Program-made: the position numbers and the translations under genes
Shown: positions 2,535 to 49,834 of the stretch, piece by piece
Numbering within the stretch: position 1 is the first letter of the stretch
Layout: each line of letters starts with the position of its first letter
Assembly (NCBI RefSeq): GCF_032884065.1
Contig: NC_088882.1
Coordinates: 37,306,519-37,370,518 of the forward strand
Origin: Artemia franciscana
Taxonomy: Eukaryota; Arthropoda; Branchiopoda; Anostraca; Artemiidae
Reading direction: 5' to 3'
DNA: 64,000 nucleotides
Notes under the pieces: generated by a model
Databases searched by the model: none
Told to the model about the DNA's origin: nothing
What the model saw: only the letters and a program-made list of their open reading frames with translations

Positions 2535-5349
2535 GTAAGATGTTTTGAGGGGGGGGGGGAGAATAGGCCAAAAACCTCTAGTGTTTTATCAGTCTTAAGT
2601 TTCAAATTGTAGTTCCGTTAGCCAAGTAGTATATAATATAAAAATGGCGTGCATAATAGTCAACCCTGATAAACTCTACCCAATTAATTGAGCCTTCAGA
2701 CGATACCGTCCCTGTTTTATTTCAATCCCCTTGAACTAACCTTCCCTGTAATTCAACTCCCGTGCAATCTATCACGGTACCTAAAACCTATAGTCAAATC
2801 TGACTTGTTGTTGACCTATGAATTAGATTCTTAATCAGTGCAGATGTGGCATAATTTCAAATTGCGGTGAACCTAGTCTTGAATCCCGAATTTTAAACTA
2901 GTTTTGCAATTAAATTAAGAGCTTTATTAATTTAAAAGTGAATGCGAATTTATTTGAAAAGATATTCTCCAAAAATGAATTCATATAAAAACCGAAAAAA
3001 ACAATCTTATTTTCTAAATTCACTACCTCTGATAGATTTAAATATATGATTTGCCGCTTGTCTTTAAAAGAATTAAGCTAAATAAAAGTTTTTTTTTTCT
3101 AAAGATGATACAAAACGAATAAGAATGATTGCTTCTAAGTATAGGCAAAACATAATTTTGACAAATTGGGCAAAATAAATTGGCTCTTCATATTTTCCAT
3201 CATTGGTTGATTTCCGAAAAACTAGGCCTTAACTGATGCCTTTACTAAAAAGACGCAAAAACGCAATATTAGAGACTGAAAATATTCTAAGTGGTACATT
3301 CTTAATGTGCCATCAGAATTGAGGTCGCCACCTTTTAAATATTTTTTTATAGATGGCTCTAAAATTGAATGCGCATTTTAAAGTTCAAAAATGTATGAGA
3401 CTAATGCTTGGTTTTAGATTGGATGCCCCAGAAAAGCAAATCTAGGCGTTAAACTACTCCTGAAGGATAACAGCACAGTCCCGGAAAATACTTGCAGGCA
3501 TTCTAAGTAGGTTGGCCTATTCACTTCTTATATCATTCCTGAAAGTATATCAGTTTACCTAATCCTTACGTCTCCCCTGCATGCAGGGGCGTTGCTTGGG
3601 GGATGAGAGGCGGTTGCCTTCCAATAATGTGGAGAAAAAATTATATATTCCATGCTCCTTAATTTTCTGGATATGTATCCCTCTTTCCCCCCTAACAAAA
3701 GGCTGGAGATTCACCCCTGCTTGTGTGCAAATACAACTTAAAGCCTACCCCATACTTAGATATGTATAGCCTACTTTATGAATTTTCAAAAGCACAACTA
3801 TTGGTAAAGGTTAAGAATAGCCTAGGCTAATGGCTTTTAATAAACAGACCCGCTATAAAACAAGAGATATTTTCAGGTTGTTAATTTTATGCCCATTGGT
3901 ATTATTTGCCTTCTTTGGCTATTCATCCCCAGTCCACCTCCTTTTTATGTAGGCTATATACAAAACAAACAGAAAATACATTTTGTTACCATTAGATGGT
4001 GTAAATATAGGTGTAGTCCAGTGTATAAGGCAACATGTTAAGAAATAATTATTATTTCATAATGTGAAGAGTAATCCTAGTTAACACGTTTTTTATAGGG
4101 AGAACATTTATCTTCACTTTTTTATCTGTTGTACAGATCTTATAACAAAATTCTTAAAAATAAACATGAATATGACTGCATTTTTGGTTTAGATGTAACC
4201 CATATTCCTTGTTAAACACCATTAGTGCCATTTGTCAAAAATATCTTAATGGAAAAATAGCCTATTGAAAATTAAGGTTAGATTAGGGTAGTTGCACTAA
4301 TGATTTGGAAGTGCAATTTCAGAACCACTGTCAAACTTTTTCCTAAAAACAGGATAACTCTATTTAGTTATGACTTGGAATATCATCACTTGAAGCCATT
4401 GTTATATTTTGATAATGCAAAATATGGACACTACATCTAATACCCCCAGATAAGAAAAGAATATTAAGTTCAATCAATTCTGTGTTTTCAACAAGAATAT
4501 ACACAGCTTAGTGCTGTAGTAAGTTCTTAGTAGTACTAAACCAAATTTACTTGATGTAATTTTTGTATACTGAATTTTTTCTTGTTATTGCTTGTTTAGA
4601 CTTTTGGTTTGAGCAGTTTTGCTTTCTTGGAAGTCTCTTGTGGTGTTACCTTCTTTAATTGATTAACTTGTCAACAAAAGGTAGGCTATTTTGTGTTTTG
4701 AAAACACAACTGACAACAAATTTTTTATTTTGCTATTAGTCAAACCCCATAGTTTAACCATAGTTCATTGTAGACCTAACTTGTGGTTATACTCTAGGGC
4801 AAATCAGGCAATGGCCTCTTTTTGTTTATCCATTTGTGTGATTAAACTTGCAAGTTTAATTGATTGCACAGCACTTTTTTCCTTTGCCATAATTCTTTTG
4901 AACTTTGATTTATTTTTGCAGTTTATTAATGAGCAAGGAACTTAAGAAAAAATTTAAGAACAGGAACTTGTATCACCAACTAACCATAGGAAACATTTCT
5001 TGGAATAAATAACTATTTTATAATTTTACCGGAATGTTTCATATATTGCTTACCTCCAAATGATCTGATAAGGATGGTCATAAGCATGACTAATCCTTGT
5101 ATCCATTTCTCTTAATATAACTATTACTACAATACCATTACTACATTAACTAAAGGAGACAACAGTAGCCAAAAGACTTAATTGGCCACCGATTTGCCAC
5201 TGATCAAGAAACCTAAACAGTGGAAACTTACTCTGAGAATCTTCCCACTATAGCACTGTAGCTTATCAGAAGGCCACCCCGTTCTGTCAGACATGTATGA
5301 GTAGACCTATATGGCAGAGATGGCCTTTCAGAAGGCAGACCTACGTTGT
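2535..5349. other. No gene seen; sequence shared by the units
   Basis: AT-rich sequence repeated in the other units, with no credible coding frame. The LINE that interrupts units 2 and 3 is absent here: the uninterrupted site is at 3296/3297. Part of this stretch (about 3650-3960) has a diverged relative at about 9190-9480 (shared 'ATGAATTTTCAAAAGCA' and neighbouring words), so it includes an older dispersed repeat. Confidence 0.5.
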
Positions 5350-7370: not shown

Positions 7371-7999
7371 GAAAACTGAAGTTAGTTATTTTATTTTTGT
7401 CATTATTTCGGTTATTCATTTACTGTAGTTTTGACCGCCACTATTTTACCTTAACTGGTTTTTGGACTGCTTCTGTCTTATGAGAGTATTTTGTTTAATC
7501 TACCGAGGCAACAAGTATTACACAAGTGTTATTAGTTACTTGTAAGTTTATTTAGTAGATTAGTAAGTAAGCATTAAGTAAGTAAGATGCTCCATCTTTA
7601 GTCTATTCATATCTGAAAGAAAAAAATTCTACTATTTTTCTGTTGGTCGTTACAAAATCATGGAGATTTTTCTCGGTATAGGTAAAATCCGCCATTGTTA
7701 CCACACCAAAACATTAAAAAAATTTAGAAACTTTTTAGGTAAGTTTGTTATTTTTTTTCCTGCTTACACAACATAGTCTAGTCCTATGCTCAATGAGATG
7801 GTTTATCCATAAGGAAATCTGATTTCAATAGAAAAATACGTTTGAATGCATCATGTCTGATTCAGTTTATAACAGACATAAATTATTGCGTAAATGAGGG
7901 GACTGCCCCATCATCAATCCCTCATTCGTTGCATAAACTTTTTAAAATGTATTAGACGAGATTCTAAGTCCAATTAAACGGTCCTTGCGTTTCAGAATT
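7371..7999. other. No gene seen; shared with unit 2
   Basis: AT-rich sequence, conserved in unit 2 (33215-33830 and 38572-39180), with no convincing coding frame or RNA gene. The similarity to unit 2 stops at 'AAACGGTCC' near 7986. Confidence 0.5.
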
Positions 8000-10789: not shown

Positions 10790-12660
10790 TTATAAATAGT
10801 CGTTCTCCAATTTGACCATCTGGGGGAGGATTGGGGGATGGTTAATTCAGAAAAATAAGAAAAAATGAAATATTTTTAACTTATGAACAGGTGATTGGAT
10901 TTTAATGAAATTTGATATTTAGAAGAACCTCATAACTCAGACCTCTTATTTTCAATCCCGACCAGATCCGGTGACATTGGGGAGTTGTAGGGGGGAAACC
11001 AGAAATTTTGGAAAATGCTTAGTGTGGAGAGGTCAGGATGGTGGGAAGAATAAGCAGAAGTTCTAGATACATTATTGACATAACCAGACTAGATCTGCTC
11101 TCTTTGGGAGATTTATGGGGGGGGGGGGGGCATAATTTAGTAATTCAGAAAAATCAGAAAAAATGAGGTATTTTTAACTTATGAACAGGTGATTGGATCT
11201 TAATGAAATTTGATATTTAGAAGGACCTTGTGTCTCAGAGCTCTTATTTTAAATCTTGACCAGATCTGGTGACATTGTAAGCAGTTGGAGGGGGAAAGCA
11301 GAAATCTTGGAAAATTCTTAGAGTGGGGAGATTGGGATGATGCTTGGTGGGAAGAATAAGCGCTGGTCCTAGGTACTTGATTTATCAACCAGACTGGATT
11401 TGCTCTCTTTGGAGGAGTTGGGAAAAATTAGAACAAATGAGGTATTTTTAACTTACAAATGGTTGATCAGATCTTAATGAAATTGGATGTTTAGCAGGGC
11501 CTTCTGTTTCAGAGCTCTTATTTTAAATCCTGACCGGATCTGCTGACATTTGGGGAGTTGGAGAGGGAGACCAGAAACCTTGGAAAATTCTTAGAGTGTA
11601 GAGATCAGGATGGAACTTGGTGGGAAGAATAAGCACATGTCCTAGATACATGATTGACATAACCGGACCGGATTTCTCTCTTTGGGAGAGTTGGGGGGTG
11701 GGGTAATTCAGCTAATTTGGAAAAATTAGAAAAAATGGGGTATTTTTAACTTATGGACAGGTGATCAGATGTTAATGGAATTTGTTATTTAGAAAGACCT
11801 CGTGTCTCAGAGCTCTTATTTTAAATACCAACCGGATCTGGTGAGGTTGGGGGGGGGGGGTTCAGAGGGGGAACTGGAAATTTTGGAAAATGCTTAGAGT
11901 GGAGAAATCGGGATTAAACTTGGTGGGAAGATAACGTACAAGTCCTAGATATGTAATTGACATAAACGGACTGGATCCGCTTGGGGAGTTGGGCGAGGGG
12001 GGGAGATTGCCACTGCTTTGGTGTGTTTGGTGCTTCTGGATGTGCTGATGATGAAAATTGGTAGGCATGTCAGGGACCTGCACAAATTGACTTGATAACA
12101 GTTGTTTCCTTGATTCGACTATATGGGGCGGGGGCTGGAGGGAGGGAAATTGTGAAAATGGAGGTATGTTTATCTTACAAATTGGTGATCAGATCTGAAT
12201 GAAACTTGATATATAGAAAGATTTCATGTCTCAGATGCTCTATTTTCCATTCGGGACATAGAAGGGTGGAGGGGGAAAGCGGAATTCTTGGAAATCGAAA
12301 ATCTTGGAAAACTCTTAGAGTGGAGAGATTGAGATGAAATTTGATGGGTAGAATAAGCACAAGCTCTAGTTACATGATTGACATAACCAGACCTGGTTTG
12401 CTCTCTTTGAGGGAGTTGGGGAGATTTCTAGTACTTTTGCGAGTTCCAAAATAAGTATAAGTTATAGATACATGATTGACATAAGCGGAATAGATCTGAT
12501 CTCTTTGGGGGAGTTGAAGGGATTTCTAGTGCTTTGGCGAGTTTAGTGCTTCTTGACGTGGTAGGGCAATGAAATCGAACTCTAGTACCAAGTCTGATTT
12601 TAGGTTCCAACCTTGTCACTAGTGCCTTATGAGCTCTTGGCTCTTGTTGGTAACCTAATT
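10790..12660. repeat. Family A repeat array (unit 1-only block)
   Basis: About six degenerate copies of the family A unit, with 'GATATTTAGAAGGACCT' landmarks near 10913, 11211, 11489, 11785 and 12207 (spacings 298, 278, 296 and 422 bp). Poly-G runs recur near 11116 and 11847. The array ends near 12630 with the usual 'CTCTTGGCTCTTGTT' tail. Short frames read from either strand are repeat by-products. Confidence 0.8.
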
Positions 12661-20949: not shown

Positions 20950-21935
20950 ATAGCGATCGCTGAAAGTTGGCGGGCGTCTCAGGGACCCGACCAGATTTAA
21001 TTAGAAATAGTCTCTTCCCTGATTTGACCATTCTTGGAAGGACGGTTAAGTTTGAAAAATCGGAAAAAGTGAGGTATTTTTAACTTACGAAAGGGTTATC
21101 GGTTTTTAATGAAATTTTATATTTAGAAGGACCTCGTGTCTCAGAGCTCGTATTTTAAAGCCCGACCTGATCTGGTGACATTGGGAGTTGGAGGGGGAAA
21201 CAGGAAATCTTGGAAAACGCTTAGAGTGGAGGGATCGTAGTAAAACTTTCTGAGAAGAAGCTTTTGGCTCTCTCGACCTCGTCGCAAGTGCCATATGAGC
21301 TCTTGTTGAATGAAGAAATATGGTTTATTAGCATTTTTTTTATGAAAAAGGTATAGTGGGAGTATATCTATTTTTTTAATTAATAAATAGTTTGTTGAGA
21401 GTCAAAAGATTGCAGCTGTCTTTTATCAGGCGCATGAAATCTCGGAAAACGCTGAGAGTGGAGAGATCGGAACGAAGCTTGGTGAGAAAAGTAAGCACAA
21501 GTTCTAGATACGTGATTGACATAAACCGGAACGGATCCGCTCTCTTTGGAGGAGTTGGGAGGGGATTAATTCGGAAAATTAGAAAAAAATGAAGTATTTT
21601 TAACTTACGAACGAGTGACCAGATCTTAACAAAATTTGATATTTAGAAGAACATCGTAACACAGACCTCTTATTTTAAATCCTGACTGGATCCAGTGTCA
21701 ATGGGGGAGTTGGGGGGAAGGAACTTGCTGGGAAGAAGCTCTTGGCTCTTCCAACCTCGTCACAAGTGCCATATGAGCTCTTGGCTCTTGTTGAACGAAG
21801 AAATGTAGTTTATCAGTAGATTTTTTTTATGAGAAATGTATAGTGGGAGTATATTTATTTTGTTTTTAATGAATTAATCATTTGTTGAGAGTCAAAAGAT
21901 TGTAGCTGTTTTTTATCAGGCGCATTGGTTTGAAG
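20950..21935. repeat. Family A repeats with a 488-bp tandem duplication (copy 1)
   Basis: Two family A segments, each ending in 'CATATGAGCTCTTG...TTGTTGAA'. Each is followed by about 130 bp of shared sequence (AGTGGGAGTATAT, TTGTTGAGAGTCAAAAGATTG, TTTTATCAGGCGCAT), beginning near 21302 and 21790. A weaker third echo of the last words occurs near 22407-22440. The copy 2 gene has the same arrangement at 47827 and 48313. Confidence 0.7.
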
Positions 21936-22395: not shown

Positions 22396-22896
22396 ATCGG
22401 TTGAAGGCAAAGGATTGCAGCACTCTAGTATCAGACGTATTGTTGCCCTCCCTTGATTGTTGATATAAGCTATGTTTATTAATATGTAGTTTGCAAATAA
22501 ATTAATTACTTAGTCAGTACTGAATTAATTGCAGTTCTTGGATACCACACGGTATTAACACTTTTTAGACAAACTCATATTTAAGTAATAACCTGCACAA
22601 GCCCAATCTTAAGAATTGCAATTACATTACAAGCTTAAGGTTTTAAAATTAAGAGAGTTTTTGTAAAAAAAACGGTTGTTTGCTCTTTACTTAGAAAAAA
22701 AGAAATAAAGGGTTGGTTGAATCACAAGAAAAATGCCTCACATTGGCTCTTACAAATTTGTCACCAAGGCAAGATACATTAAAACTAAATATATAGTCCG
22801 TAATTAGGGTTAAGTATCAATAGTTGAATTGAGTGACCAATAAAAGTAATTGATTTTTGAGTGAAATTTACGTTATTTCAATTTTTCCCCTTGCAG

Positions 22897-23519
22897 ATAA
22901 CCCAAGAAGCGACACTGTGAAAAAACCTTTCGAATGTGATATGTGTGATAAAACATTCCGCTTAAAATGCAATCTATCTTCTCATCGAAGAACTCATACT
23001 GGAGAAAAACCTTTCAAATGTGATATGTGTGATAAAACATTCCGCTTAAAATGCAATCTATCTTCTCATCGAAGAACTCATACTGGAGAAAAACCTTTCA
23101 AATGTGACATGTGCGATAGAACATTCTGCCAAAAGTCTCACCTAACTTATCATCGAAGAAGTCACACTGGAGAAAAACCTTTCAAATGTGACGTATGTGA
23201 TAAAACATTCGATCAAAAATCGAACCTATCGCAACATCAAGTAACTCACACTGGAGAAAAACCTTTCCAATGCGACATATGCGATAAAACTTTCGGTGGG
23301 AAATCTAACCTATCTTCGCATCAAAGAATTCACACCGGAGAAAAACCTTTCAAGTGTTTGACATGTCAGAAAGCATTTCGTCAAAAATCTCATCTATCTG
23401 ATCATCAAAGAATTCATACTAGAAAAAAACGTTTTGAATGTGGTATGTGTGAGAAAACGTTCTGCAACAAATACCACCTATCTTATCATCAAAGAACTCA
23501 TTCTGGTGAACAATGTTAG
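22897..23519 (+). CDS. C2H2 zinc-finger protein copy 1, last exon (seven fingers)
   Basis: A probable nuclear sequence-specific DNA-binding protein. This exon follows CCCCTTGCAG, enters in phase 1 and codes for residues 125-331 of a 331-residue protein (exons 15216-15258, 16747-16917, 18579-18737 and this one; 996 nt in all, no stop inside). Seven C2H2 fingers start at C138 and repeat every 28 residues to H326. Most are joined by TGEKPF linkers; finger 6 to 7 has TRKKRF. All Cys and His ligands are present. The helix residues at -1/2/3/6 are L-C-N-S, L-C-N-S, Q-S-H-Y, Q-S-N-Q, G-S-N-S, Q-S-H-D and N-Y-H-Y. Fingers 1 and 2 are identical, from an exact 84-bp repeat not present in copy 2. The protein ends SGEQC. 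No effector domain (KRAB, BTB, ZAD) is recognised. Target DNA is unknown. Confidence 0.92.
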
Positions 23520-27055: not shown

Positions 27056-29231
27056 AAGGTTCTAGTCCCCAAAGGATGAGACGAAGGCCTGCTGCCAGGA
27101 AAGCCATCAGCAAGGAAAGCTGATGAAATTGAGCTAGCTGCAGAAAAGAAAGACATGGGCAGCCTATTCAAGCATCTCCGAGACCTCACTGAAAATAAAA
27201 CTCCCACCTTGGGTCACATCCTGTCCAGGGATGGTGCACTTCTCTCTGACGAAGGTTCTTGTCTTGAGTGGTGGAAGGACCACTTCTGTTCGCTCCTCAA
27301 CAATACTGGTCCGTCTGCGCCTCCTAATGATAGTCCCAGCGAACCTTGCAGTCAAAGACCTGGAACGGATGTCCCTCTAGATGAGCCTTTCAGCCCCTCA
27401 GAGATTGGACATGCAGTAAAAAGACTCAAGAATAATAAAGCTGCTGGTATCTGTGGCTTAAACTCAGAGCTGCTAAAATATGGAGGTCCTGCAATGCTCC
27501 TGTTTCTACACACCCTGTTCTCTACAATCTGGCAAACAGAGATAGTTCCCGAGGATTGGTGGAAGGGTGTCATCATCCCCTTACGGAAGAGAAAAGGCTC
27601 GAGAAGCGACTGCTCTAACTACCGGGGAATAACCCTACTGTCAGTCCCTGGCAAACTGTTTTCAATGGTCCTGCTGGATCGATGTCGGAGCATCATTCGA
27701 AAAATCCGGCGACCGGAGCAAGCTGGTTTTATGTCGGATCGTTCAACCATCGAGCAGATTTTCACGATTCGACAAATAGTAGAGAAGACCACAGAGTTCC
27801 GACAGAAAGCATTTATTGCCTTCGTTGACTTCCGTGCTGCATTTGACTCAGTCGATTTACGTTATGACAAAAACCACTTCACGTCTCAGCTTTGGGCTCA
27901 AATTCGGAGATCATACCATCTCAGATGTCGATTTTGCCGATGACTTGGCCATTCTGGCCGACTCCATGGAGCAGCTGCTGGAAGCGCTCCGAATTCTGCG
28001 AGAAGAGGCTGCCAAAGTAGGACTGCATATAAACTGGAACAAAACTAAAATTATGGCCATAGAACCGTTTTCTCCTGCTGTTAACTCTCCAGTTAGCCTG
28101 GACAGCACCACTAGCATCGAGGTTGTTAAAGAATTCACCTACCTGGGCTCCGTAATTTCTTCAAATGGATCACTTCTCCCCGAGCTGCAGGCAAGATTAT
28201 CTAAAGCGTCTTCTGTCATGGGTAGACTGAATCGTCACCTGTGGCGAAAACCATAATATCAGTCGCACAACGAAACTGCGGATCTTCAACGCTCTAGTCG
28301 GCTCTGTGATGCTTTACGGAGCTGAGACATGGCAAGCATCAGCTGCAACCATCAAGAAAATAGACGTATTTCATGCAAAGAGCCTGAGGAGGATTGAGGG
28401 CCTACGATGGTCCGACTTCGTCAGCAATGAAAAGTTTCTGCAGCTCACAAAGCAGTCTTGGTTTTCGACTCAAGCAGCCGAGCGAACCTTACGATGGTTC
28501 GGGCATCTGCTTCGAATGCCACCACATCTACCCGCAAAGATGATCTATGACTTCGACCGTAACAAAGTTGGTTGGAAGCGACCTCGCGGCCGACCGAAGA
28601 AACGTTGGTCCAACAGCCTGTCCGAGTTCTTGGCGATGGCAAACATCAGACAGGGCGAAGAACAAATCCTCGCCATGGACCGAAGTGGGTGGAGGAGGCA
28701 GACGTCACTCTCTACACCGAGCAGTGCCCGGCAGGAGACTTAAGTCCAAATAAGTAAGTCCAGTCCCCAGAGCGCCACTACAAAGCTCCTTCTGGAATTT
28801 TGCGAGACACCAACAATTGTGTATTGTGAAAGTCTTTGAAATTGGACCTGTTGGAGTAATTTCAAAATTAAATTCTCTCTAAAAATTTTAAGTGAGACAC
28901 AAGAGTTCAAAAGTGAATCCTTCAAGAGTGAATCCTCTTGAGACGCAAGAGTTCAAAAGTGAATCCTTCAAGAGTGAATCCTCTTGAGACGCCAAGTAAG
29001 AGGAATAAAAAATATTTGGGACATACCTCTGTAACAGGTAGCCTGGGCATACTAGCAAACAAGAATTGTTGTTAGTTCTTCAAACATGTATGTCAGGAGC
29101 AGATTTCATGGTACTAACGGCTATACTATCACAGGAAATGAGTTTATGTGTGCTGCCTTCTGGATTTCAGGTATTTGTGATACCAAAAACCATTTTCAAT
29201 TTAGCGATATATTTTAAAATTATTATAAAAA
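27056..29231 (+). mobile_element. 5'-truncated non-LTR retrotransposon (LINE), copy in unit 2
   Basis: Compared with the empty site in unit 1 (3296/3297), 2176 bp are inserted. They code for the linker (MGSLFKHLRDLTENK, RWKDHFCSLLN-like) and for reverse transcriptase. RT landmarks are NNKAAGICGLNSELLKYGG, then NYRGITLLSVPGKLFS, QAGFMSDRSTIEQIF, FVDFRAAFDSVD (motif A), then VDFADDLAILAD (motif C) and GLHINWNKTKIM. The C-terminal tail has RWFGHLLRMP and GWKRPRGRPKKRW, with a stop at 28741. A 191-bp deletion removes motif B (GVRQGC), which unit 3 still has, so this copy cannot be active. A frameshift near 28250 is shared with unit 3. The 3' region carries a 46-bp tandem duplication (28892-28986). 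No clear target duplication is seen. APE type is likely; the clade is not resolved. Confidence 0.9.
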
Positions 29232-31194
29232 CATTCTTAATGTGCCATCAGAATTGAGATCGCCACCTTTTGAATATTTTTTATATATGGCTCTAAAATT
29301 GAATGCGCATTTTAAAGTTCAAAAATACATGAGAGTAATGCATGGTTTTAGATTGGATGCCCCAGAAAAGCAAATCTAGGCGTTAAACTACTCCTGAAGG
29401 AAACAGCACAGTCCCGGAAAATACTTGCAGGCATTCTAAGCAGGTTAGCCTATTCACTACTTATATCATTCCTAAAAGTACATCAGTTTACCTAATCCTT
29501 ACGTCTCCCCTGCATGCAGGGGCGTTGCTTGGGGGATGAGAGGCAGTTACCTTCCAATAATTTGGAGGAAAAATTATATATTCCATGCTCCTTAATTATC
29601 TGGATATGTTTCCCTCTTTCCCCCCTAACAAAAGGCTGGAGATTCACCCCTGCTTGTGTGCAAATAAAACTTAAAGCCTATCCCATAGGCCTACTTAGAT
29701 ATGTATACTTTATGAATTTTCAAAAGCACAACTATTGGTAAAGGTTAAGAATAACCTAGGCTAATGGCTCTTAAAAAACAGACCTGCTATAAAACAAGAG
29801 ATATTTTCAGGTTGTTAATTTTATGCCCATTGGCATTATTTGCCTTCTTTGGCTATGCATCCCCAGTCCACCTCCTTTTTATGTAGGCTATATACAAAAC
29901 AAACAGAAAATACATTTTTTACCATTAGATAGTGTAAATGTAGGTGTAGTCCAGTGCATAAGGAAACATGTTAAGAAATAATTATTATTTCATAATGTGC
30001 AGAATAATCCTAGTTAACATGTTTTTCATAGGGAGAACATTTATCTTCACTTTTTTATCTGTTGTACAGATCTTATAACAAAATTCTTAAAAATAAACAT
30101 GAATATGACTGCATTTTCAGTTTGGAAGTAACCCATATCCTAGTTAAACACCATTAGTGCCATTTGTCAGAAACATCTGAATGGTCAAATAGCCTATTGA
30201 AAATTAAGGTTAGATTAGGGTAGTTGCACTAATGATTTGGAAGTGCAATTTCAGAACCACTGTCAAACTTTTTCTTAAAAACAGGATAACTCTATTTAGT
30301 TATGACTTGGAATATCATCACTTCAAGCCATTGTTATATTTTGATAATGCAAAATGTGGACACTAGTTCTTAGTAGTACTAAACCAAATTTACTTAATGT
30401 AATTTTTGTATACTGAATTTTTTCTTGTTATTGCTTGTTTGGACTTTTGGTTTGAGCAGTTTTGCTTTCTTGGAAGTCTCTTGTGGTGTTACCTTCTTTA
30501 ATTGATAAACTTGTCAACAAAAGGTAGGCTATTTTGTGTTTTGTAAACACAACTGACAACAAAATTTTTTATTTTGCTATTAGTCAAACCCCATAGTTTA
30601 ACCACAGTTCATGGTAGACCTAACTTGTGGTTATACTCTAGGGCAAATCAGGCAATGGCCTCTTTTTGTTTATCCATTTGTGTGAATAAACTTGCAAGTT
30701 TAATTGATTGCACAGCACTTTTTTCCTTTGTCATAATTCTTTTGAACTTTGATTTATTTTTGCAGTTTATTAATGAGCAAGGAACTTAAGAAAAAATTTA
30801 AGAACAGGAACTTGTATCGCCAAATAGCCATAGGAAACATTTCTTGGAATAAATAACTATTTTATAATTTTACCGGAATGTTTCCTATATTGCTTACCTC
30901 CAAATGATCCAATAAGGATGGTTGTAACCAAGACTATAATCCTTGTATCCATTTCTCTTAATATAACTATTACTACAATACCATTACTACATTAACTAAA
31001 GGAGACAATAGTAGCCAAAAGACTTAATTGGCCACCAATTTGCCACTGATCAAGAAACCTAAACAGTGGAAACTTACTCTGAGAATCTTCCCACTGTAGC
31101 ACTGTAGCTTATCAGAAGGCCACCCCTTTCTGTTGGACATGTATGAGTAGACCTATATGGCATAGATGGCATTTCAGAAGGCAGACCTACGTTG

Positions 31195-31196
<2 letters not shown>

Positions 31197-31288
<92 letters not shown>
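31197..31288. repeat. (AT)n microsatellite
   Basis: About 46 AT units. The matching tract at 36556 is about 90 bp long, and the unit 1 tract (5350) begins with AC units. Confidence 0.95.
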
Positions 31289-31291
<3 letters not shown>

Positions 31292-31479
31292 ATTTATTCA
31301 TACCCTTCTGTATAGTACATTCACCTCTCTTTTGTTAGTATAATAAAAGAGCAGTGAATATACATTATGCCTTTTAGGAGGTTTTTAAGAATAATCCAGA
31401 GATGTTGATTTATATTTATCCTGACCTCTATATAGTTTAGGATGCTAGAATATGGCAACAAATAATTATTTACCAATTA

Positions 31480-32800
31480 TACGTTCTTTTAAAATTGACT
31501 GTTTTGAAAACTTTTTGTGTTTACTTGATACAGATGCTTCACAACCTTTAATTAGAGAGTAAGTTTATAGGGGGTTTTCCTCATAGTTTACAAAATCATG
31601 TAAGCAGATGCTAGAATACCCTGACTCCATAACAGGTCACAAACTTTCAATTTTGGGGAAATGTTCCTTTAAATTTAGCACAGGGACTAATGAAATAACA
31701 GTAACAGCAATAGTATATAGACAGATCCCATTTCCTTGCATTTTGGAGTGGATGCAATAAGAAAATATGGAACCGTTTGAGATCCAATAACCAATAATAT
31801 TACTATAACAAAGTCACACACAACTAATAGACAAATTTTTGTAACAGCAGAGAACAGTAGTGAAAACCCCAAATACATTTAAAAATTAAACGGAAAAACC
31901 ATCGTTGAAGAGCAAATGATGTCTCAAGTCTTAGCAACATCAGACACAAAGGAGGGTAATAGCAAAACAATTGACAGTGTAACAGGAGGTTACAACCTAA
32001 AGAATTATCCCTCAAATTTTCATGGAAAATTAAATTTTCAAAATTGAGAAAGGTATCACATATTTGAAACTATCCAAACTAAGCAGCGGTAATGTAAAAG
32101 TAAATAAAGCAACCTTAGGAACAGCAGAAAAGATTTTAAATACAGATATTAAATCACTAAGCAGTCGAAAACTAAGCATAAATTTTAAAAGCCAAGAGCA
32201 AATTTCACTGAAATAACAGCAGCTACGGCATGACAAAAGCTGATATTTTTTTTAAGTTTTAATTTAGAACATTTACCAGAAAATATTAAAATCCAGGTAG
32301 GAAATGTTTCATGGGACTATAAGTGGACTTTCGTAAGACATAAATCTGGTTAGGGCTTAACTTACCTGATAACTAAAAAAATACCAACGCAAGGACCGCC
32401 AATTACAAAATCCCCATATAAGACCCCCTAGCATTTAAGATCATGGCTTGATGACCAAATAAAATAAATGGAAGAACAGGAAGTCAGTAAAGAGGGGGTT
32501 AGCAAATGGTGTTTTTCATTAGTAATAGTCATAAAGAAAGACAATACCTGGAGATGCTGTGTAGACTTTAGGGCGCTAACTGCAGTCACAGTTAAAGATG
32601 TGGAGTTACCAAGAATAGTAAGAATTCTCGGTTCATTAAGAGGGTCAAAATATTATTCAAGTTTCGACCTGATCGCGGGATATTGGCAAATAGCCTTAGA
32701 CCCAGAAACGAATCACAAAGCAACCGTTTTAGACGATGAGAGAACGTTCACGTTTGAACACGTGCCCTTCAGCTTATCCTTCAGCCCAGACTTTTAGCCG
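31480..32800 (+). mobile_element. Ty3/Gypsy-like fossil, second copy
   Basis: The same broken protease-RT fragment as at 5640-6955, with the RT part from 32468. It has the same ends as the unit 1 copy, so it was copied as part of the block and did not insert separately. Several breaks; no LTRs. Confidence 0.8.
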
Positions 32801-32894
32801 ACTAATTAAGTAAGTATTGAAGCATGATAAACAAGAAAAACACACGGGAGTCGATACAGAAAGTAAAAGAGATACCTTAGCTTATTTAGATGTT

Positions 32895-33215
32895 GTAATA
32901 TTATTCAAGCTGGCAAACCTCTCTACCCAAGTAGAAGCCCGCTCTCTAAGGTGGTATGGCCACCAACTCCGTCTTCCGCTAAGTAGCCCCGCAAAGATCA
33001 TCTCGGACTTCAACCCCTCGGAAAATGGCTGGAAACGGCCTCGAGGAAGGCCACGCACTAGATGGGCTGATGTAATAAACCAATGCCTGCTCAATCGCAA
33101 CATCAACCTAAATGAGGCCCCATCCTTAGCCCTGGAAGTTCTGGTACGAGAATAGCCTTTGCATTGTAAAATTTTGGATGAGGAAATTAAAGTACGAGAA
33201 TGAATGAATTATTTA
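32895..33215 (+). mobile_element. LINE 3' tail joined to the Ty3 fossil, second copy
   Basis: LRWYGHQLRLP and GWKRPRGRPRTRWADV, with a stop at 33153-33155 and the GAATGAATGAAT tail. Same position and ends as 7055-7370. Confidence 0.7.
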
Positions 33216-34567
33216 ATGAAAACTGAAGTTAGTTATTTTATTTTGTCATTATTTCGGTTATTCATTTGCTGTAGTTTTGACCGCCACTATTTTACCTTAA
33301 CTGGTTTTTGGACTGCTTCTGTCTTATGAGAGTATTTTGTTTAATCTACCGAGGCAACAAGTATTACACAAGTGTTATTAGTTACTTGTAAGTTTATTTA
33401 GTAGATTAGTAAGTAAGCATTAAGTAAGTAAGATGCTCCATCTTTAGTCTATTCATATCTGAAAAAAAAAAATTCTACTATTTTTCTGTTGGTCGTTACA
33501 AAATCATGGAGATTTTTCTCGGTATAGGTAAAATCCGCCATTGTTACCACACCAAAACATTAAAAAAATTTAGAAACTTATTAGGTAAGTTTGTTATTTT
33601 TTTTCCTGCTTACACAACATAGTCTAGTCCTATGCTCAATGAGATGGTTTATCCATAAGGAAGTCTGGTTTCAATAGAAAAATACGTTTGAATGCATCAT
33701 GTCTGATTCAGTTTATAACAGACATAAATTATTGCGTAAATGAGGGGACTGCCCAATCACCAATCCCTCATTCGTTGCATAAACTTTTTAAAATGTATTA
33801 GACGAGATTTTAAGTCCCATTAAACGGTCCAGGAAATAGTAACCAAGACTCTAAAAAAAGAAATCTTTATAACACTTAAGACATTTCAACGGTTGGCTTT
33901 TTATCCCAATTCCAAATTTATTGAATTCATGGTATTAATTTCAGGTCCAAAAATTATATTAATAATTTTTGAGTTATTTTTTATATTAATAATTATTGTC
34001 TAATAATAATATTTGATTAAATAAAGCAGTAAGTATATTTATTAAATTAAAACTCATTTAAAGCAAAAAGCCTGAAACATCTGCCTAATTTTGAAATAAG
34101 GGGGAAATACCACCAAAAAGAAAAGGGGCTGTAATGAAATTCAAATAATTGTATTCAGTATATTAGATAACTTTACTGTAGAGTAGTGATTTCCAGTCTT
34201 TTTCAAATGCATGCGTTTTGACAAAAATCTTCATCATTGAACACACTTTTCCACATAGTATTATTAACTACCAATTGGCTGATTTGTTTTTCAACTTCTT
34301 AGTAAAGACTGAGCTTTAAAGGTCCATATTAGACATTCATCATATATGAAAACTGATTATATTCATTATGTCAGAAAAAAATATACTTAGTCTAAGTAAA
34401 ATTCTTTTTCAACAAGAATTAAAAAAAGAACTGTTTGTACATTATTGTTGTGATGAAAATTCAATCCAAAATTTATCTTTAAAATAATTTCAAAGTAATA
34501 GAAAATATTGCATATTATTTTTGACAATTTATGCAGGTTTATGAACAGAAAGCTTTATGCCTCTCGG

Positions 34568-34667
34568 NNNNNNNNNNNNNNNNNNNNNNNNNNNNNNNNN
34601 NNNNNNNNNNNNNNNNNNNNNNNNNNNNNNNNNNNNNNNNNNNNNNNNNNNNNNNNNNNNNNNNNNN
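34568..34667. other. Assembly gap (100 N)
   Basis: Exactly 100 N, the usual placeholder for a gap of unknown size. The left contig ends inside sequence that the right side repeats at 39925, and the right contig begins with a copy of 29398. Confidence 0.98.
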
Positions 34668-36553
34668 AGGAAACAGCACAGTCCCGGAAAATACTTGCAG
34701 GCATTCTAAGCAGGTTAGCCTATTCACTACTTATATCATTCCTAAAAGTACATCAGTTTACCTAATCCTTACGTCTCCCCTGCATGCAGGGGCGTTGCTT
34801 GGGGGATGAGAGGCAGTTACCTTCCAATAATTTGGAGGAAAAATTATATATTCCATGCTCCTTAATTATCTGGATATGTTTCCCTCTTTCCCCCCTAACA
34901 AAAGGCTGGAGATTCACCCCTGCTTGTGTGCAAATAAAACTTAAAGCCTATCCCATAGGCCTACTTAGATATGTATACTTTATGAATTTTCAAAAGCACA
35001 ACTATTGGTAAAGGTTAAGAATAACCTAGGCTAATGGCTCTTAAAAAACAGACCTGCTATAAAACAAGAGATATTTTCAGGTTGTTAATTTTATGCCCAT
35101 TGGCATTATTTGCCTTCTTTGGCTATGCATCCCCAGTCCACCTCCTTTTTATGTAGGCTATATACAAAACAAACAGAAAATACATTTTTTACCATTAGAT
35201 AGTGTAAATGTAGGTGTAGTCCAGTGCATAAGGAAACATGTTAAGAAATAATTATTATTTCATAATGTGCAGAATAATCCTAGTTAACATGTTTTTCATA
35301 GGGAGAACATTTATCTTCACTTTTTTATCTGTTGTACAGATCTTATAACAAAATTCTTAAAAATAAACATGAATATGACTGCATTTTCAGTTTGGAAGTA
35401 ACCCATATCCTAGTTAAACACCATTAGTGCCATTTGTCAGAAACATCTGAATGGTCAAATAGCCTATTGAAAATTAAGGTTAGATTAGGGTAGTTGCACT
35501 AATGATTTGGAAGTGCAATTTCAGAACCACTGTCAAACTTTTTCTTAAAAACAGGATAACTCTATTTAGTTATGACTTGGAATATCATCACTTCAAGCCA
35601 TTGTTATATTTTGATAATGCAAAATGTGGACACTACATCTAATACCCCCAGATAAGAAAAGAATATTAAGTTCAATCAATTCTGTGTTTTCAACAAGAAT
35701 ATACACAGCTTAGTGCTGTAGTAAGTTCTTAGTAGTACTAAACCAAATTTACTTGATGTAATTTTTGTATACTGAATTTTTTCTTGTTATTGCTTGTTTG
35801 GACTTTTGGTTTGAGCAGTTTTGCTTTCTTGGAAGTCTCTTGTGGTGTTACCTTCTTTAATTGATAAACTTGTCAACAAAAGGTAGGCTATTTTGTGTTT
35901 TGTAAACACAACTGACAACAAAATTTTTTATTTTGCTATTAGTCAAACCCCATAGTTTAACCACAGTTCATGGTAGACCTAACTTGTGGTTATACTCTAG
36001 GGCAAATCAGGCAATGGCCTCTTTTTGTTTATCCATTTGTGTGAATAAACTTGCAAGTTTAATTGATTGCACAGCACTTTTTTCCTTTGTCATAATTCTT
36101 TTGAACTTTGATTTATTTTTGCAGTTTATTAATGAGCAAGGAACTTAAGAAAAAATTTAAGAACAGGAACTTGTATCGCCAAATAGCCATAGGAAACATT
36201 TCTTGGAATAAATAACTATTTTATAATTTTACCGGAATGTTTCCTATATTGCTTACCTCCAAATGATCCAATAAGGATGGTTGTAACCAAGACTATAATC
36301 CTTGTATCCATTTCTCTTAATATAACTATTACTACAATACCATTACTACATTAACTAAAGGAGACAATAGTAGCCAAAAGACTTAATTGGCCACCAATTT
36401 GCCACTGATCAAGAAACCTAAACAGTGGAAACTTACTCTGAGAATCTTCCCACTGTAGCACTGTAGCTTATCAGAAGGCCACCCCTTTCTGTTGGACATG
36501 TATGAGTAGACCTATATGGCATAGATGGCATTTCAGAAGGCAGACCTACGTTG

Positions 36554-36555
<2 letters not shown>

Positions 36556-36645
<90 letters not shown>
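36556..36645. repeat. (AT)n microsatellite
   Basis: About 45 AT units; the counterpart of 31197-31288. Confidence 0.95.
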
Positions 36646-36648
<3 letters not shown>

Positions 36649-36839
36649 ATTTATTCATACCCTTCTGTATAGTACATTCACCTCTCTTTTGTTAGTATAA
36701 TAAAAGAGCAGTGAATATACATTATGCCTTTTAGGAGGTTTTTAAGAATAATCCAGAGATGTTGATTTATATTTATCCTGACCTCTATATAGTTTAGGAT
36801 GCTAGAATATGGCAACAAATAATTATTTACCAATTATAC

Positions 36840-38157
36840 GTTCTTTTAAAATTGACTGTTTTGAAAACTTTTTGTGTTTACTTGATACAGATGCTTCACA
36901 ACCTTTAATTAGAGAGTAAGTTTATAGGGGGTTTTCCTCATAGTTTACAAAATCATGTAAGCAGATGCTAGAATACCCTGACTCCATAACAGGTCACAAA
37001 CTTTCAATTTTGGGGAAATGTTCCTTTAAATTTAGCACAGGGACTAATGAAATAACAGTAACAGCAATAGTATATAGACAGATCCCATTTCCTTGCATTT
37101 TGGAGTGGATGCAATAAGAAAATATGGAACCGTTTGAGATCCAATAACCAATAATATTACTATAACAAAGTCACACACAACTAATAGACAAATTTTTGTA
37201 ACAGCAGAGAACAGTAGTGAAAACCCCAAATACATTTAAAAATTAAACGGAAAAACCATCGTTGAAGAACAAATGATGTCTCAAGTCTTAGCAACATCAG
37301 ACACAAAGGAGGGTAATAGCAAAACAATTGACAGTGTAACAGGAGGATACAACCTAAAGAATTATCCCTCAAATTTTCATGGAAAATTAAATTTTCAAAA
37401 TTGAGAAAGGTATCACATATTTGAAACTATCCAAACTAAGCAGCGGTAATGTAAAAGTAAATAAAGCAACCTTAGGAACAGCAGAAAAGATTTTAAATAC
37501 AGATATTAAATCACTAAGCAGTCGAAAACTAAGCATAAATTTTAAAAGCCAAGAGCAAATTTCACTGAAATAACAGCAGCTACGGCATGACAAAAGCTGA
37601 TATTTTTTTTAAGTTTTAATTTAGAACATTTACCAGAAAATATTAAAATCCAGGTAGGAAATGTTTCATGGGACTATAAGTGGACTTTCGTAAGACATAA
37701 ATCTGGTTAGGGCTTAACTTACCTGATAACTAAAAAAATACCAACGCAAGGACCGCCAATTACAAAATCCCCATATAAGACCCCCTAGCATTTAAGATCA
37801 TGGCTTGATGACCAAATAAAATAAATGGAAGAACAGGAAGTCAGTAAAGAGGGGGTTAGCAAATGGTGTTTTTCATTAGTAATAGTCATAAAGAAAGACA
37901 ATACCTGGAGATGCTGTGTAGACTTTAGGGCGCTAACTGCAGTCACAGTTAAAGATGTGGAGTTACCAAGAATAGTAAGAATTCTCGGTTCATTAAGAGG
38001 GTCAAAATATTATTCAAGTTTCGACCTGATCGCGGGATATTGGCAAATAGCCTTAGACCCAGAAACGAATCACAAAGCAACCGTTTTAGACGATGAGAGA
38101 ACGTTCACGTTTGAACACGTGCCCTTCAGCTTATCCTTCAGCCCAGACTTTTAGCCG
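36840..38157 (+). mobile_element. Ty3/Gypsy-like fossil, third copy
   Basis: The same broken protease-RT fragment, with the RT part from 37825. It is nearly identical to the copy at 31480 and probably its allele. Confidence 0.8.
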
Positions 38158-38251
38158 ACTAATTAAGTAAGTATTGAAGCATGATAAACAAGAAAAACAC
38201 ACGGGAGTCGATACAGAAAGTAAAAGAGATACCTTAGCTTATTTAGATGTT

Positions 38252-38572
38252 GTAATATTATTCAAGCTGGCAAACCTCTCTACCCAAGTAGAAGCCCGCT
38301 CTCTAAGGTGGTATGGCCACCAACTCCGTCTTCCGCTAAGTAGCCCCGCAAAGATCATCTCGGACTTCAACCCCTCGGAAAATGGCTGGAAACGGCCTCG
38401 AGGAAGGCCACGCACTAGATGGGCTGATGTAATAAACCAGTGCCTGCTCAATCGCAACATCAACCTAAATGAGGCCCCATCCTTAGCCCTGGAAGTTCTG
38501 GTACGAGAATAGCCTTTGCATTGTAAAATTTTGGATGAGGAAATTAAAGTACGAGAATGAATGAATTATTTA
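38252..38572 (+). mobile_element. LINE 3' tail joined to the Ty3 fossil, third copy
   Basis: The same C-terminal tail as at 32895, with a stop at 38510-38512 and the GAATGAATGAAT tail. Confidence 0.7.
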
Positions 38573-39187
38573 ATGAAAACTGAAGTTAGTTATTTTATTT
38601 TTGTCATTATTTCGGTTATTCATTTGCTGTAGTTTTGACCGCCACTATTTTACCTTAACTGGTTTTTGGACTGCTTCTGTCTTATGAGAGTATTTTGTTT
38701 AATCTACCGAGGCAACAAGTATTACACAAGTGTTATTAGTTACTTGTAAGTTTATTTAGTAGATTAGTAAGTAAGCATTAAGTAAGTAAGATGCTCCATC
38801 TTTAGTCTATTCATATCTGAAAAAAAAAAATTCTACTATTTTTCTGTTGGTCGTTACAAAATCATGGAGATTTTTCTCGGTATAGGTAAAATCCGCCATT
38901 GTTACCACACCAAAACATTAAAAAAATTTAGAAACTTTTTAGGTAAGTTTGTTATTTTTTTTCCTGCTTACACAACATAGTCTAGTCCTATGCTCAATGA
39001 GATGGTTTATCCATAAGGAAGTCTGGTTTCAATAGAAAAATACGTTTGAATGCATCATGTCTGATTCAGTTTATAACAGACATAAATTATTGCGTAAATG
39101 AGGGGACTGCCCCATCACCAATCCCTCATTCGTTGCATAAACTTTTTAAAATGTATTAGACGAGATTTTAAGTCCAATTAAACGGTC

Positions 39188-40718
39188 CAGGAAATAGTAA
39201 CCAAGACTCTAAAAAAAGAAATCTTTATAACACTTAAGACATTTCAACGGTTGGCTTTTTATCCCAATTCCAAATTTATTGAATTCATGGTATTAATTTC
39301 AGGTCCAAAAATTATATTAATAATTTTTGAGTTATTTTTTATATTAATAATTATTGTCTAATAATAATATTTGATTAAATAAAGCAGTAAGTATATTTAT
39401 TAAATTAAAACTCATTTAAAGCAAAAAGCCTGAAACATCTGCCTAATTTTGAAATAAGGGGGAAATACCACCAAAAAGAAAAGGGGCTGTAATGAAATTC
39501 AAATAATTGTATTCAGTATATTAGATAACTTTACTGTAGAGTAGTGATTTCCAGTCTTTTTCAAATGCATGCGTTTTGACAAAAATCTTCATCATTGAAC
39601 ACACTTTTCCACATAGTATTATTAACTACCAATTGGCTGATTTGTTTTTCAACTTCTTAGTAAAGACTGAGCTTTAAAGGTCCATATTAGACATTCATCA
39701 TATATGAAAACTGATTATATTCATTATGTCAGAAAAAAATATACTTAGTCTAAGTAAAATTCTTTTTCAACAAGAATTAAAAAAAGAACTGTTTGTACAT
39801 TATTGTTGTGATGAAAATTCAATCCAAAATTTATCTTTAAAATAATTTCAAAGTAATAGAAAATATTGCATATTATTTTTGACAATTTATGCAGGTTTAT
39901 GAACAGAAAGCTTTATGCCTCTCGGTGAAGTCACTTAGCTTAAATATTTCAGTTCAGACCAATGATGAGACGTAGAGTCTTGGGTCTGAAGTTGGATGAA
40001 GCTTATTTCTATGTTTGCTCTTGATAAATGCATAGGACGAAAACACTTTCTCAAGATATTTTGAGTTTTGGAAAGGCAGCAGACGCTTCAGGGCTACATC
40101 ACTCTGCTTTTGTAAATCCAAAATTCGAGTGCTATCTTTAGGGAGTCCTTCTTAATTGTTTGATTTTTAGACTATTTTGAACAAAATATCCTAAATTTCA
40201 GTCAGAGGTCCTTATTGAGAAGGTAGTTAAAAAGAGGATTGACCAATGTTGGTTGACCTCCATTCATGTTTTCTCTAAAGATGATACTAGAAATTTTTCA
40301 TTAGATATCAGTTTAGTTCCCTGTTGGCCTTAGGCAACCAGTGTTTCAATATAAAGTGGTTCTGGGATAAAAAATAATAACAATAATGCATTGAAGCGTT
40401 ATGCATTTTACTATGGACTACACTTGAGCATTGCCTCTGAAAGGAATTTACTTTTCTAGGAATCTTAGGTTTCCATCACAGTCTTTTTGGGTAAACAAAG
40501 AACTCAAGTCTGTTTACCATAAGACTATTTTTATTGCAAATGGTTAATCTAAAGATAAAGTGGTAATAAATTGGTTTTGAATTTTGGAATCCATTTATCT
40601 ATTCTTGTTTTACTTGTTTCTAAAAATATTTTCTAGGTTAGGTCCTCTTTGTACTCTTTGAAGATATGGCTGTCAAATTCGTTGATTTTTCAATTTATGT
40701 CGGTTTTTAATTATTCAG
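39188..40718. other. Upstream region of the zinc-finger gene (copy 2)
   Basis: The counterpart of 13640-15169. The join to the preceding sequence ('AAACGGTCC' then 'AGGAAATAGTAACC') marks the place where unit 2 lacks 5.6 kb present in unit 1. The possible 30-nt micro-exon is at 39895-39924. No promoter element is assigned. Confidence 0.45.
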
Positions 40719-47449: not shown

Positions 47450-48450
47450 CAATATAGCGATCGCTGAAAGTTGGCAGGCGTCTCAGGGACTCGTCCAGAT
47501 TTAATTAGAAATAGTCTCTTCCCTGATTTGACCATTCGGGGCGGGGGGGGGGGGGGGTGGAAGGACGGTTAAGTTTGAAAAATCGGAAAAAATGAGGTAT
47601 TTTTAACTTATGAAAGGGTTATCGGTTTTTAATGAAATTTTATATTTAGAAGGACCTCGTGTCTCAGAGCTCGTATTTTAAAGCCCGACCTGATCTGGTG
47701 ACATTGGGAGTTGGAGGGGGAAACAGGAAATCTTGGAAAACGCTTAGAGTGGAGGGATCATAATAAAAATTTCTGAGAAGAAACTCTTGGCTCTCTCGAC
47801 CTTGTCACTATTGCCATATGAGCTCTTGTTGAATGAAGAAATATAGTTTATTAGCATTTTTTTTTATGAAAAAGGTATAGTGGGAGTATATCTATTTTTT
47901 TTAATTAATAAATAGTTTGTTGAGAGTCAAAAAATTGCAGCTGTCTTTTATCAGGCGCATGAAATCTCGGAAAACGCTGAGAGTGGAGAGATCGGAATGA
48001 AGCTTGGTGGGAAAAGTAAGCACAAGTTCGAGATACGTGATTGACATAACCGGAACGGATCCGCTCTCTTTGGAGGAGTTGGGAGGGGATTAATTCGGAA
48101 AATTAGAAAAAATGAGGAATTTTTAACTTACGAACGATTGACCGGATCTTAACGAAATTTGATATTTAGAAGAACATCGTAACACAGACCTCTTATTTTA
48201 AATCCTGACTGGATCCTGTGTCAATGGGGGAGTTGGGGGGAAGGAACTTGCTGGGAAGAAGCTCTTGGCTCTTCCAACCTCGTCACAAGTGCCATATGAG
48301 CTCTTTGCTCTTGTTGAATGAAGAAATGTAGTTTATCAGTAGATTTTTTTTATGAGAAATGTATAATGGGAGTATATTTATTTTGTTTTTAATCAATGAA
48401 TCATTTGTTGAGAGTCAAAAGATTGTAGCTGTTTTTTATCAGGCGCATTG
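47450..48450. repeat. Family A repeats with a tandem duplication (copy 2)
   Basis: The counterpart of 20950-21935. The 486-bp direct duplication starts near 47827 and 48313. A long G tract (near 47540-47556) is expanded relative to copy 1, where it is missing. Confidence 0.7.
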
Positions 48451-49211: not shown

Positions 49212-49834
49212 ATAACCCAAGAAGCGACACTGTGAAAAAACCTTTCGAATGTGATATGTGCAGGAAATGTTTTCCTACAAATTCTCTTTTAATTCGTCAT
49301 CAAACAACGCATAGTGGAGAAAAACCTTTCAAATGTGATATGTGTGATAAAACATTCCGCGTAAAATGCAATCTATCTTCTCATCAAAGAACTCATACTG
49401 GAGAAAAACCTTTCAAATGTGACATGTGCGATAGAACATTCTGCCAAAAGTCTCACCTAACTTATCATCGAAGAAGTCACACTGGAGAAAAACCTTTCAA
49501 ATGTGACGTATGTGATAAAACATTCGATCAAAAATCGAACCTATCTAAACATCAAGTAACTCACACTGGAGAAAAACCTTTCCAATGCGACATATGCGAT
49601 AAAGCGTTCGGTGGAAAATCTAACCTATCTTCGCATCAAAGAATTCACACCGGAGAAAAACCTTTCAAGTGTTTGACATGTCAGAAAGAATTTCGTCAAA
49701 AATCTCATCTATCTGATCATCAAAGAATTCATATTAGAAAAAAACGTTTCGAATGTGGTGTGTGTGAGAAAACGTTCTGCAACAAATACCACCTATCTTA
49801 TCATCAAAGAACTCATTCTGGTGAACAATGTTAG
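49212..49834 (+). CDS. C2H2 zinc-finger protein copy 2, last exon (seven fingers)
   Basis: The paralogue of 22897-23519, with the same gene model (40765-40807, 42236-42406, 45010-45168, 49212-49834), 331 residues and no stop. Finger 1 is CDMCRKCFPTNSLLIRHQTTH, unlike any other finger, with helix residues T-S-L-R and an SGEKP linker. Finger 2 has V where copy 1 has L at -1. Finger 4 has K where copy 1 has Q at position 6. Fingers 3, 5, 6 and 7 keep the contact residues. All Cys/His ligands are intact, so the protein should fold. It is likely nuclear and DNA-binding, with a specificity that differs from copy 1 mainly at the finger 1-2 end. Role and target unknown. Confidence 0.92.

Follow-up and report, generated by a model that had tools for sequence, protein, structure and literature searches.

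Finger 1 of a tandem zinc-finger paralogue in Artemia franciscana: a probable gene conversion from the neighbouring finger

Two tandem poly-C2H2 zinc-finger copies, here called copy 1 and copy 2, lie in a stretch of 64,000 nucleotides of Artemia franciscana DNA (contig NC_088882.1, positions 37,306,519 to 37,370,518; GC 0.350), which was analysed as a whole and is referred to as the window; a third, copy 0, lies upstream of it. Finger 1 of copy 1 is an exact duplicate of finger 2 of the same array, and it was very probably made by non-allelic (intragenic) gene conversion from that finger. The recipient is in the derived state, the transfer was one-way, the tract has readable limits, a marker places the donor in cis, and the length of the array was kept.

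The doubled finger of copy 1

The exon of copy 1 and the two finger slots concerned are as follows.

22895-22896, forward strand: predicted splice acceptor AG of the copy 1 exon, read from the sequence and the same in copies 0 and 2
22897..23519, forward strand: zinc-finger exon of copy 1, an ORF with 7 Pfam zf-C2H2 stretches, containing a leader (..DNPRSDTVKKPFE), then seven C2H2 fingers and the stop TAG
22935..23018, forward strand: finger 1 of copy 1 with its linker (slot 1), overwritten with slot 2 sequence
23019..23102, forward strand: slot 2 of copy 1, the donor, still present

From 22933 to 23023, every base is identical to the one 84 positions further on, a run of 91 consecutive matches, and the whole stretch involved in this perfect repeat is 22933-23107. 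An earlier note on this DNA had described an exact 84-bp repeat over finger 1 at 22930-23105; the repeat is there, and its coordinates were off by at most 3 bases. Slots 1 and 2 of copy 1, counted from the first Cys (22935), have 0/84 differences, while slot 1 differs from that of copy 2 at 26 positions and from that of copy 0 at 27. The longest run at the same lag in the copy 2 array is 27. When the match vector of copy 1 (498 positions, 393 matches) was shuffled, a run of 91 was obtained in 0 of 100,000 shuffles.

The pair is also exceptional within its family. It is the closest (0/84) of 327 adjacent finger pairs, the next closest having 1, 2, 3 and 5 differences in 84 and the median being 24. 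The pairs counted are those at the exact 28-residue spacing, drawn from 57 arrays (399 fingers) in 40 stretches that were chosen by similarity to copy 1, and the ranking is thus one within the family, not genome-wide. When the assembly was searched with 22900-23120, the only full-length match at 100% among the matches listed was the site itself. These results confirm the doubled finger as a real feature of the sequence.

Copy 2 provides the contrast, through the following two features.

49212..49834, forward strand: zinc-finger exon of copy 2 with the ancestral finger 1
49250..49333, forward strand: slot 1 of copy 2, the ancestral RKCF-type finger (1/84 difference to slot 1 of copy 0; slot-1 clade with support 100/99)

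The exon of each copy consists of a short leader and seven fingers, and Pfam zf-C2H2, in a run on six chosen ORFs of the window, finds 7 stretches in each. The fingers are tandem C-x2-C-x12-H-x3-H units joined by TGEKP-type linkers, the linkers being read from the translation. Some Pfam rows other than zinc fingers, BolA in both copies among them, pass the whole-protein cut-off with 0 stretches individually, and were rejected as the sum of weak repeat matches. Finger 1 of copy 2 is CDMCRKCFPTNSLLIRHQTTH, which differs from finger 2 of that copy at 24/63 bases; in copy 1, an unconverted finger 1 would be recognised by RKCFPTNSLLIRH. Slots 2-7 of the two copies align without gaps and with 11 differences in 504 bp, compared with 26 over the 84 bp that make up slot 1, and the flanks agree well (6/182 differences on the intron side, 20/579 on the 3' side). 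The earlier note was therefore correct that copy 2 carries a clearly different finger 1 between matching flanks and that the finger number stays at seven. Given 11/504 elsewhere, at least 25 differences in 54 bp have a binomial P of 2.7e-27, a conservative figure as 26 were observed, and this rules out in practice an origin of the copy 1 finger by separate point mutations.

Outside slot 1, copies 1 and 2 differ by 7 nonsynonymous and 4 synonymous changes (pN 0.016, pS 0.039), which suggests mild constraint at most, the numbers being too small for more. A search for upstream exons, by blastn and tblastx of the paralogue flanks against the window, gave no clear coding exon among the matches listed, which were mostly repeats matching on both strands. 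The copy 2 protein, scanned as 6 peptide patterns against viral contigs, gave 0 matches, as expected for an animal gene.

Polarity, tract and donor

Which finger 1 is ancestral can be read from the third tandem copy (L003/L009), which has the start of its array about 2.4 kb upstream of the window. Copy 0 was found by a whole-genome search with the copy 1 array as query (1,270,528,402 bases in 6,468 contigs). In noncoding sequence it differs from copy 1 at 16/182 and 35/595 positions and from copy 2 at 15/182 and 39/578, compared with 6/182 and 20/579 between copies 1 and 2; copy 0 is thus the most diverged of the three and serves as the outgroup. Its finger 1 is of the copy 2 type, with a single, silent difference in 84. 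The earlier note had proposed to ask which finger 1 is ancestral: an outgroup from the same genome is without the doubled finger and has the RKCF type.

The wider family agrees. The RKCF-type finger 1 is present in 10 of the 11 arrays that share the leader, namely copy 0, copy 2 and 8 further paralogues, copy 1 being the exception. Slot 1 of these ten has 0-11 differences in 63 to the ancestral finger 1 and 21-27 to finger 2, the reference fingers being those of copy 2, whose own fit is trivial; slot 1 of copy 1 has 25 and 2, respectively. The 11 arrays come from the 57 (40 stretches) for which the copy 1 array was the query, and the count leaves out arrays that lack a recognisable leader or at least two intact fingers in a row. 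In a finger tree the ten slot-1 fingers form one clade (support 100/99), and finger 1 of copy 1 falls outside it, identical to finger 2 of copy 1; the tree is built on 63 columns only, and many of its other forks are open. Five more leader-bearing exons, some of them broken, also begin with an RKCF-type finger, but they were chosen by likeness to that finger and are not independent evidence; distances were computed for two of them, and three were judged by eye from translations. Since copy 0 and 10 of the 11 leader-bearing arrays have the other type, finger 1 of copy 1 is derived.

Several other features of the family were seen in passing. The detected arrays have 2-16 intact fingers, some arrays being cut by frameshifts or region ends. 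An RKCF-type finger, a type seen elsewhere at slot 1, occupies the second place in one array (L020, reverse complement, 3067-3549), an arrangement that insertion or fusion of a finger 1 might have produced. On C6, at 38.9 and 40.5 Mb, there are near-identical array pairs on opposite strands, 1.5 Mb apart (L023/L029 and L035/L040, with 7/1176 and 1/924 differences), which may reflect either an inverted duplication of recent date or a haplotype put in the wrong place. Finger 10 of L023/L029 was considered as a further conversion and dropped, as it rests on 3 differences.

The limits of the overwritten tract in copy 1 follow from diagnostic sites, at which slot 1 has the same base in copies 0 and 2 but another in copy 1.

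22946..22999, forward strand: minimal overwritten tract, from the first to the last of 26 diagnostic sites
22933..23023, forward strand: maximal overwritten tract

All 26 diagnostic sites are of the copy 1 slot 2 type. The borders are marked by a slot 1 base retained at 22932 and a slot 2 base at 23024, and together with the diagnostic sites they set the tract at 54 to 91 bp. The donor can be identified through a private change: copy 1 has T both at 22962 in slot 1 and at the matching slot 2 position, 23046, whereas slot 2 of copies 0 and 2 has G there. As this T is common to both slots and private to copy 1, the donor was copy 1's own slot 2. Slot 2 itself has 2 differences each to slot 2 of copy 2 and of copy 0. 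The transfer is non-reciprocal, with the donor retained, and the sharp limits, ancestral flanks and gapless alignment of seven units mean that the length is unchanged.

The simplest order of events is duplication, then the V-to-L change in finger 2, then the overwriting. In the proposed mechanism, the ancestor of the three tandem copies would have had the conserved RKCF-type finger 1. A G-to-T change (V to L) would have arisen in finger 2 of copy 1 after copies 1 and 2 separated, and 54-91 bp of finger 2 would then have been copied over the matching part of finger 1, leaving the donor unchanged and altering neither length nor frame. The pathway was most likely break repair or a template switch, in which a broken finger may pair with its neighbour one 84-bp register out. 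Dating is poor: if the overwriting were as old as the split of copies 1 and 2, the probability of 0 differences between the slots would still be 0.05-0.16, and the identity of the slots therefore gives no useful limit.

The replacement is predicted to alter DNA recognition. At helix positions -1, 2, 3 and 6 of finger 1, where contact with bases is predicted, T,S,L,R gives way to L,C,N,S, and the copy 1 protein would accordingly be predicted to read the finger-2 triplet twice.

A second event and the alternatives

Another replacement is found in copy 0, whose finger 5 is a copy of finger 6 that replaces the GGKSNLSSH finger of copies 1 and 2. Its minimal tract is L009:7407-7472, with the slot 5 state retained at 7391 and 7475, and this event too preserved length, the three-way alignment of the arrays being gapless. 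Finger 5 of copy 0 is identical over 63 bp to finger 6 of copy 1; the donor may or may not have been in cis. In both events a finger was copied onto its upstream neighbour (F2 over F1, F6 over F5), but two cases are too few for a directional rule. That fingers of this cluster are repeatedly overwritten by the next finger downstream, with array length kept, holds for 2/2 resolved events among the three tandem copies and is offered as a tentative, rather doubtful generalization. If true, short conversions would re-deal binding specificity while array length, frame and flanks stay as they are. In copy 0 (L009:6972-7565 and beyond), moreover, a Cys of finger 2 has become Arg and a stop codon follows finger 6; judging from its sequence, this copy is probably decaying.

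The earlier note had offered gene conversion or unequal exchange within the array after the duplication. The outgroup and the private T bear out an event after the duplication, and conversion is the part that we retain. Unequal exchange is the less probable option, as a single exchange alters the number of fingers and a second event would have to compensate for the first: finger 2 would be duplicated and finger 1 deleted, in either order, by exchange or slippage, to return to seven. If a deletion had broken within the shared TTTCRAATGTGATATGTG and 84 bp had then been duplicated in tandem, the final sequence would by our reasoning be the same, and since finger number varies widely among the arrays of the family, expansions and contractions do occur. 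However, seven would have to be restored by coincidence, and the coincidence repeated in copy 0, and no array of six or eight finger units exists among the three copies. Although the end products are identical, parsimony and the copy 0 event favour conversion, and we consider the two-event route unlikely. Gene conversion is favoured since one step gives the one-way transfer, the kept donor, the short tract, the sharp limits and the same length.

It is improbable that copies 1 and 2 are two haplotypes placed end to end, their difference being allelic, a reading that would itself be compatible with conversion in one allele. Alleles could conceivably differ by the roughly 3.4% seen in noncoding sequence of the two copies, which have a run of N between them.

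34568..34667, no strand: 100-N scaffold gap between the stretches of copy 1 and copy 2, the only gap in the window

The two flanks of the gap match each other over 5.2 kb and reach exactly to it: 29398-34567 corresponds to 34668-39925 at 99.76-100%, apart from an extra 88 bases, whereas the in-phase segment 3464-7984 matches the second stretch at only 97.07%. Because the end-to-start identity exceeds the in-phase identity, the second stretch continues the first, and the apparent overlap of contigs across the gap speaks for a true order of copy 1 followed by copy 2. Copies 0 and 1, moreover, are on one gap-free stretch, so tandem copies exist anyway. The gap flanks look like the unmerged overlap of dovetailed contig ends, that is, a false duplication; the spacer is probably repeated falsely, and copies 1 and 2 are probably nearer than they look. 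The available part of one A. franciscana genome report describes Peregrine assembly, Purge Haplotigs, Pilon polishing and RagTag scaffolding on A. sinica (PMC11492255). If the present assembly is that one, its scaffolding would explain such a gap join.

Reverse-transcriptase fragments at 27080-27943 and 32468-32797 (RVT_1, E 6e-10 and 5e-5, the latter below its cut-off) mark retroelements, now broken, within the tandem unit. AT-rich repeats, which are about 70-85% alike, occupy 1-1029, 10843-12246, approximately 20960-21930 and 47465-48450, and are also found upstream of copy 0. A further stretch, 61257-63435, shows internal repetition at 64-77%.

We regard as very improbable an assembly or polishing error in which finger 2 was written twice and finger 1 dropped. 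The flaw at the join, with its 5.2 kb overlap on both sides, is nearby, and the likely source assembly was made from PacBio Sequel reads with Pilon polishing and reference-guided scaffolding, according to the part of its report consulted (PMC11492255). The site is, however, 11 kb inside a gap-free stretch; the left flank base at 22932 retains the slot 1 state; and with 24/63 differences between fingers 1 and 2 of copy 2, polishing should not confuse them. The usual assembly error in a repeat array gains or loses a whole unit, changing the finger number. Among the matches listed, 54 places resemble the ancestral finger 1, and identity above 90% is found in copies 2 and 0 only. Of 100 candidates 40 were scored, and among the matches listed nothing was seen of a separate allele of copy 1 that still has the ancestral finger 1.

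Known systems and significance

Copying between fingers is already known, especially in PRDM9, and copy 1 is a clean new instance of it. In PRDM9, KRAB and PR/SET domains precede the finger array; the tandem Artemia family is not shown to be PRDM9. In what is available of the studies on concerted evolution of PRDM9 fingers, identical fingers occur within one array (PMC2779102; PMC3890296), and the authors of PMC2779102 favour non-allelic gene conversion as the explanation. The likeness to that account lies in the tandem C2H2 units and in fingers of identical nucleotide sequence in one array. In the Artemia event, by contrast, an outgroup copy makes it possible to name the donor and the recipient and to set the tract limits, and the family is without sign of runaway homogenisation (median 24/84 between neighbours).

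In mammalian poly-ZF clusters, as far as the accessible part of one survey goes, short conversions were detected by GENECONV in a few genes of many sets, and deletion or duplication of whole fingers was the commonest source of number differences (PMC2604467). Tandem clusters, short conversions and gain or loss of fingers among paralogues are shared with the present family. Here, however, a finger is replaced with the number kept, and the donor is in the same array, in contrast to what that part of the survey reports. Arthropods have ZF271/APEZ-like poly-ZF expansions in tandem clusters, described in the consulted part of PMC6444547. By that description the Artemia family resembles them in its many C2H2 repeats, tandem clusters, disrupted members and an exon with no clear non-zinc-finger domain; it differs in the leader and the RKCF-type finger 1, which set apart a subfamily that this analysis saw in a single genome. 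In the literature searched, no work on zinc-finger arrays of Artemia was found, and "zinc finger" has 0 occurrences in the main text of PMC11492255.

Conversion in zinc-finger arrays has often been inferred from overall similarity, as repeated turnover erases both donor and order. The present case allows the donor and the recipient, the tract limits and the sequence of events to be read directly, because its three copies are young and the finger-1 type is conserved; its value is the resolved donor and order. It is a single case of a known process, with an effect on function that is predicted only. As the sequences suggest, one step of 54-91 bp can shift the predicted DNA target of a tandem paralogue while its length is unaltered. 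If the overwriting of fingers by their downstream neighbours proved general, register-shifted conversion, and not gain or loss of fingers, would be what first drives tandem zinc-finger paralogues of this lineage apart in function.
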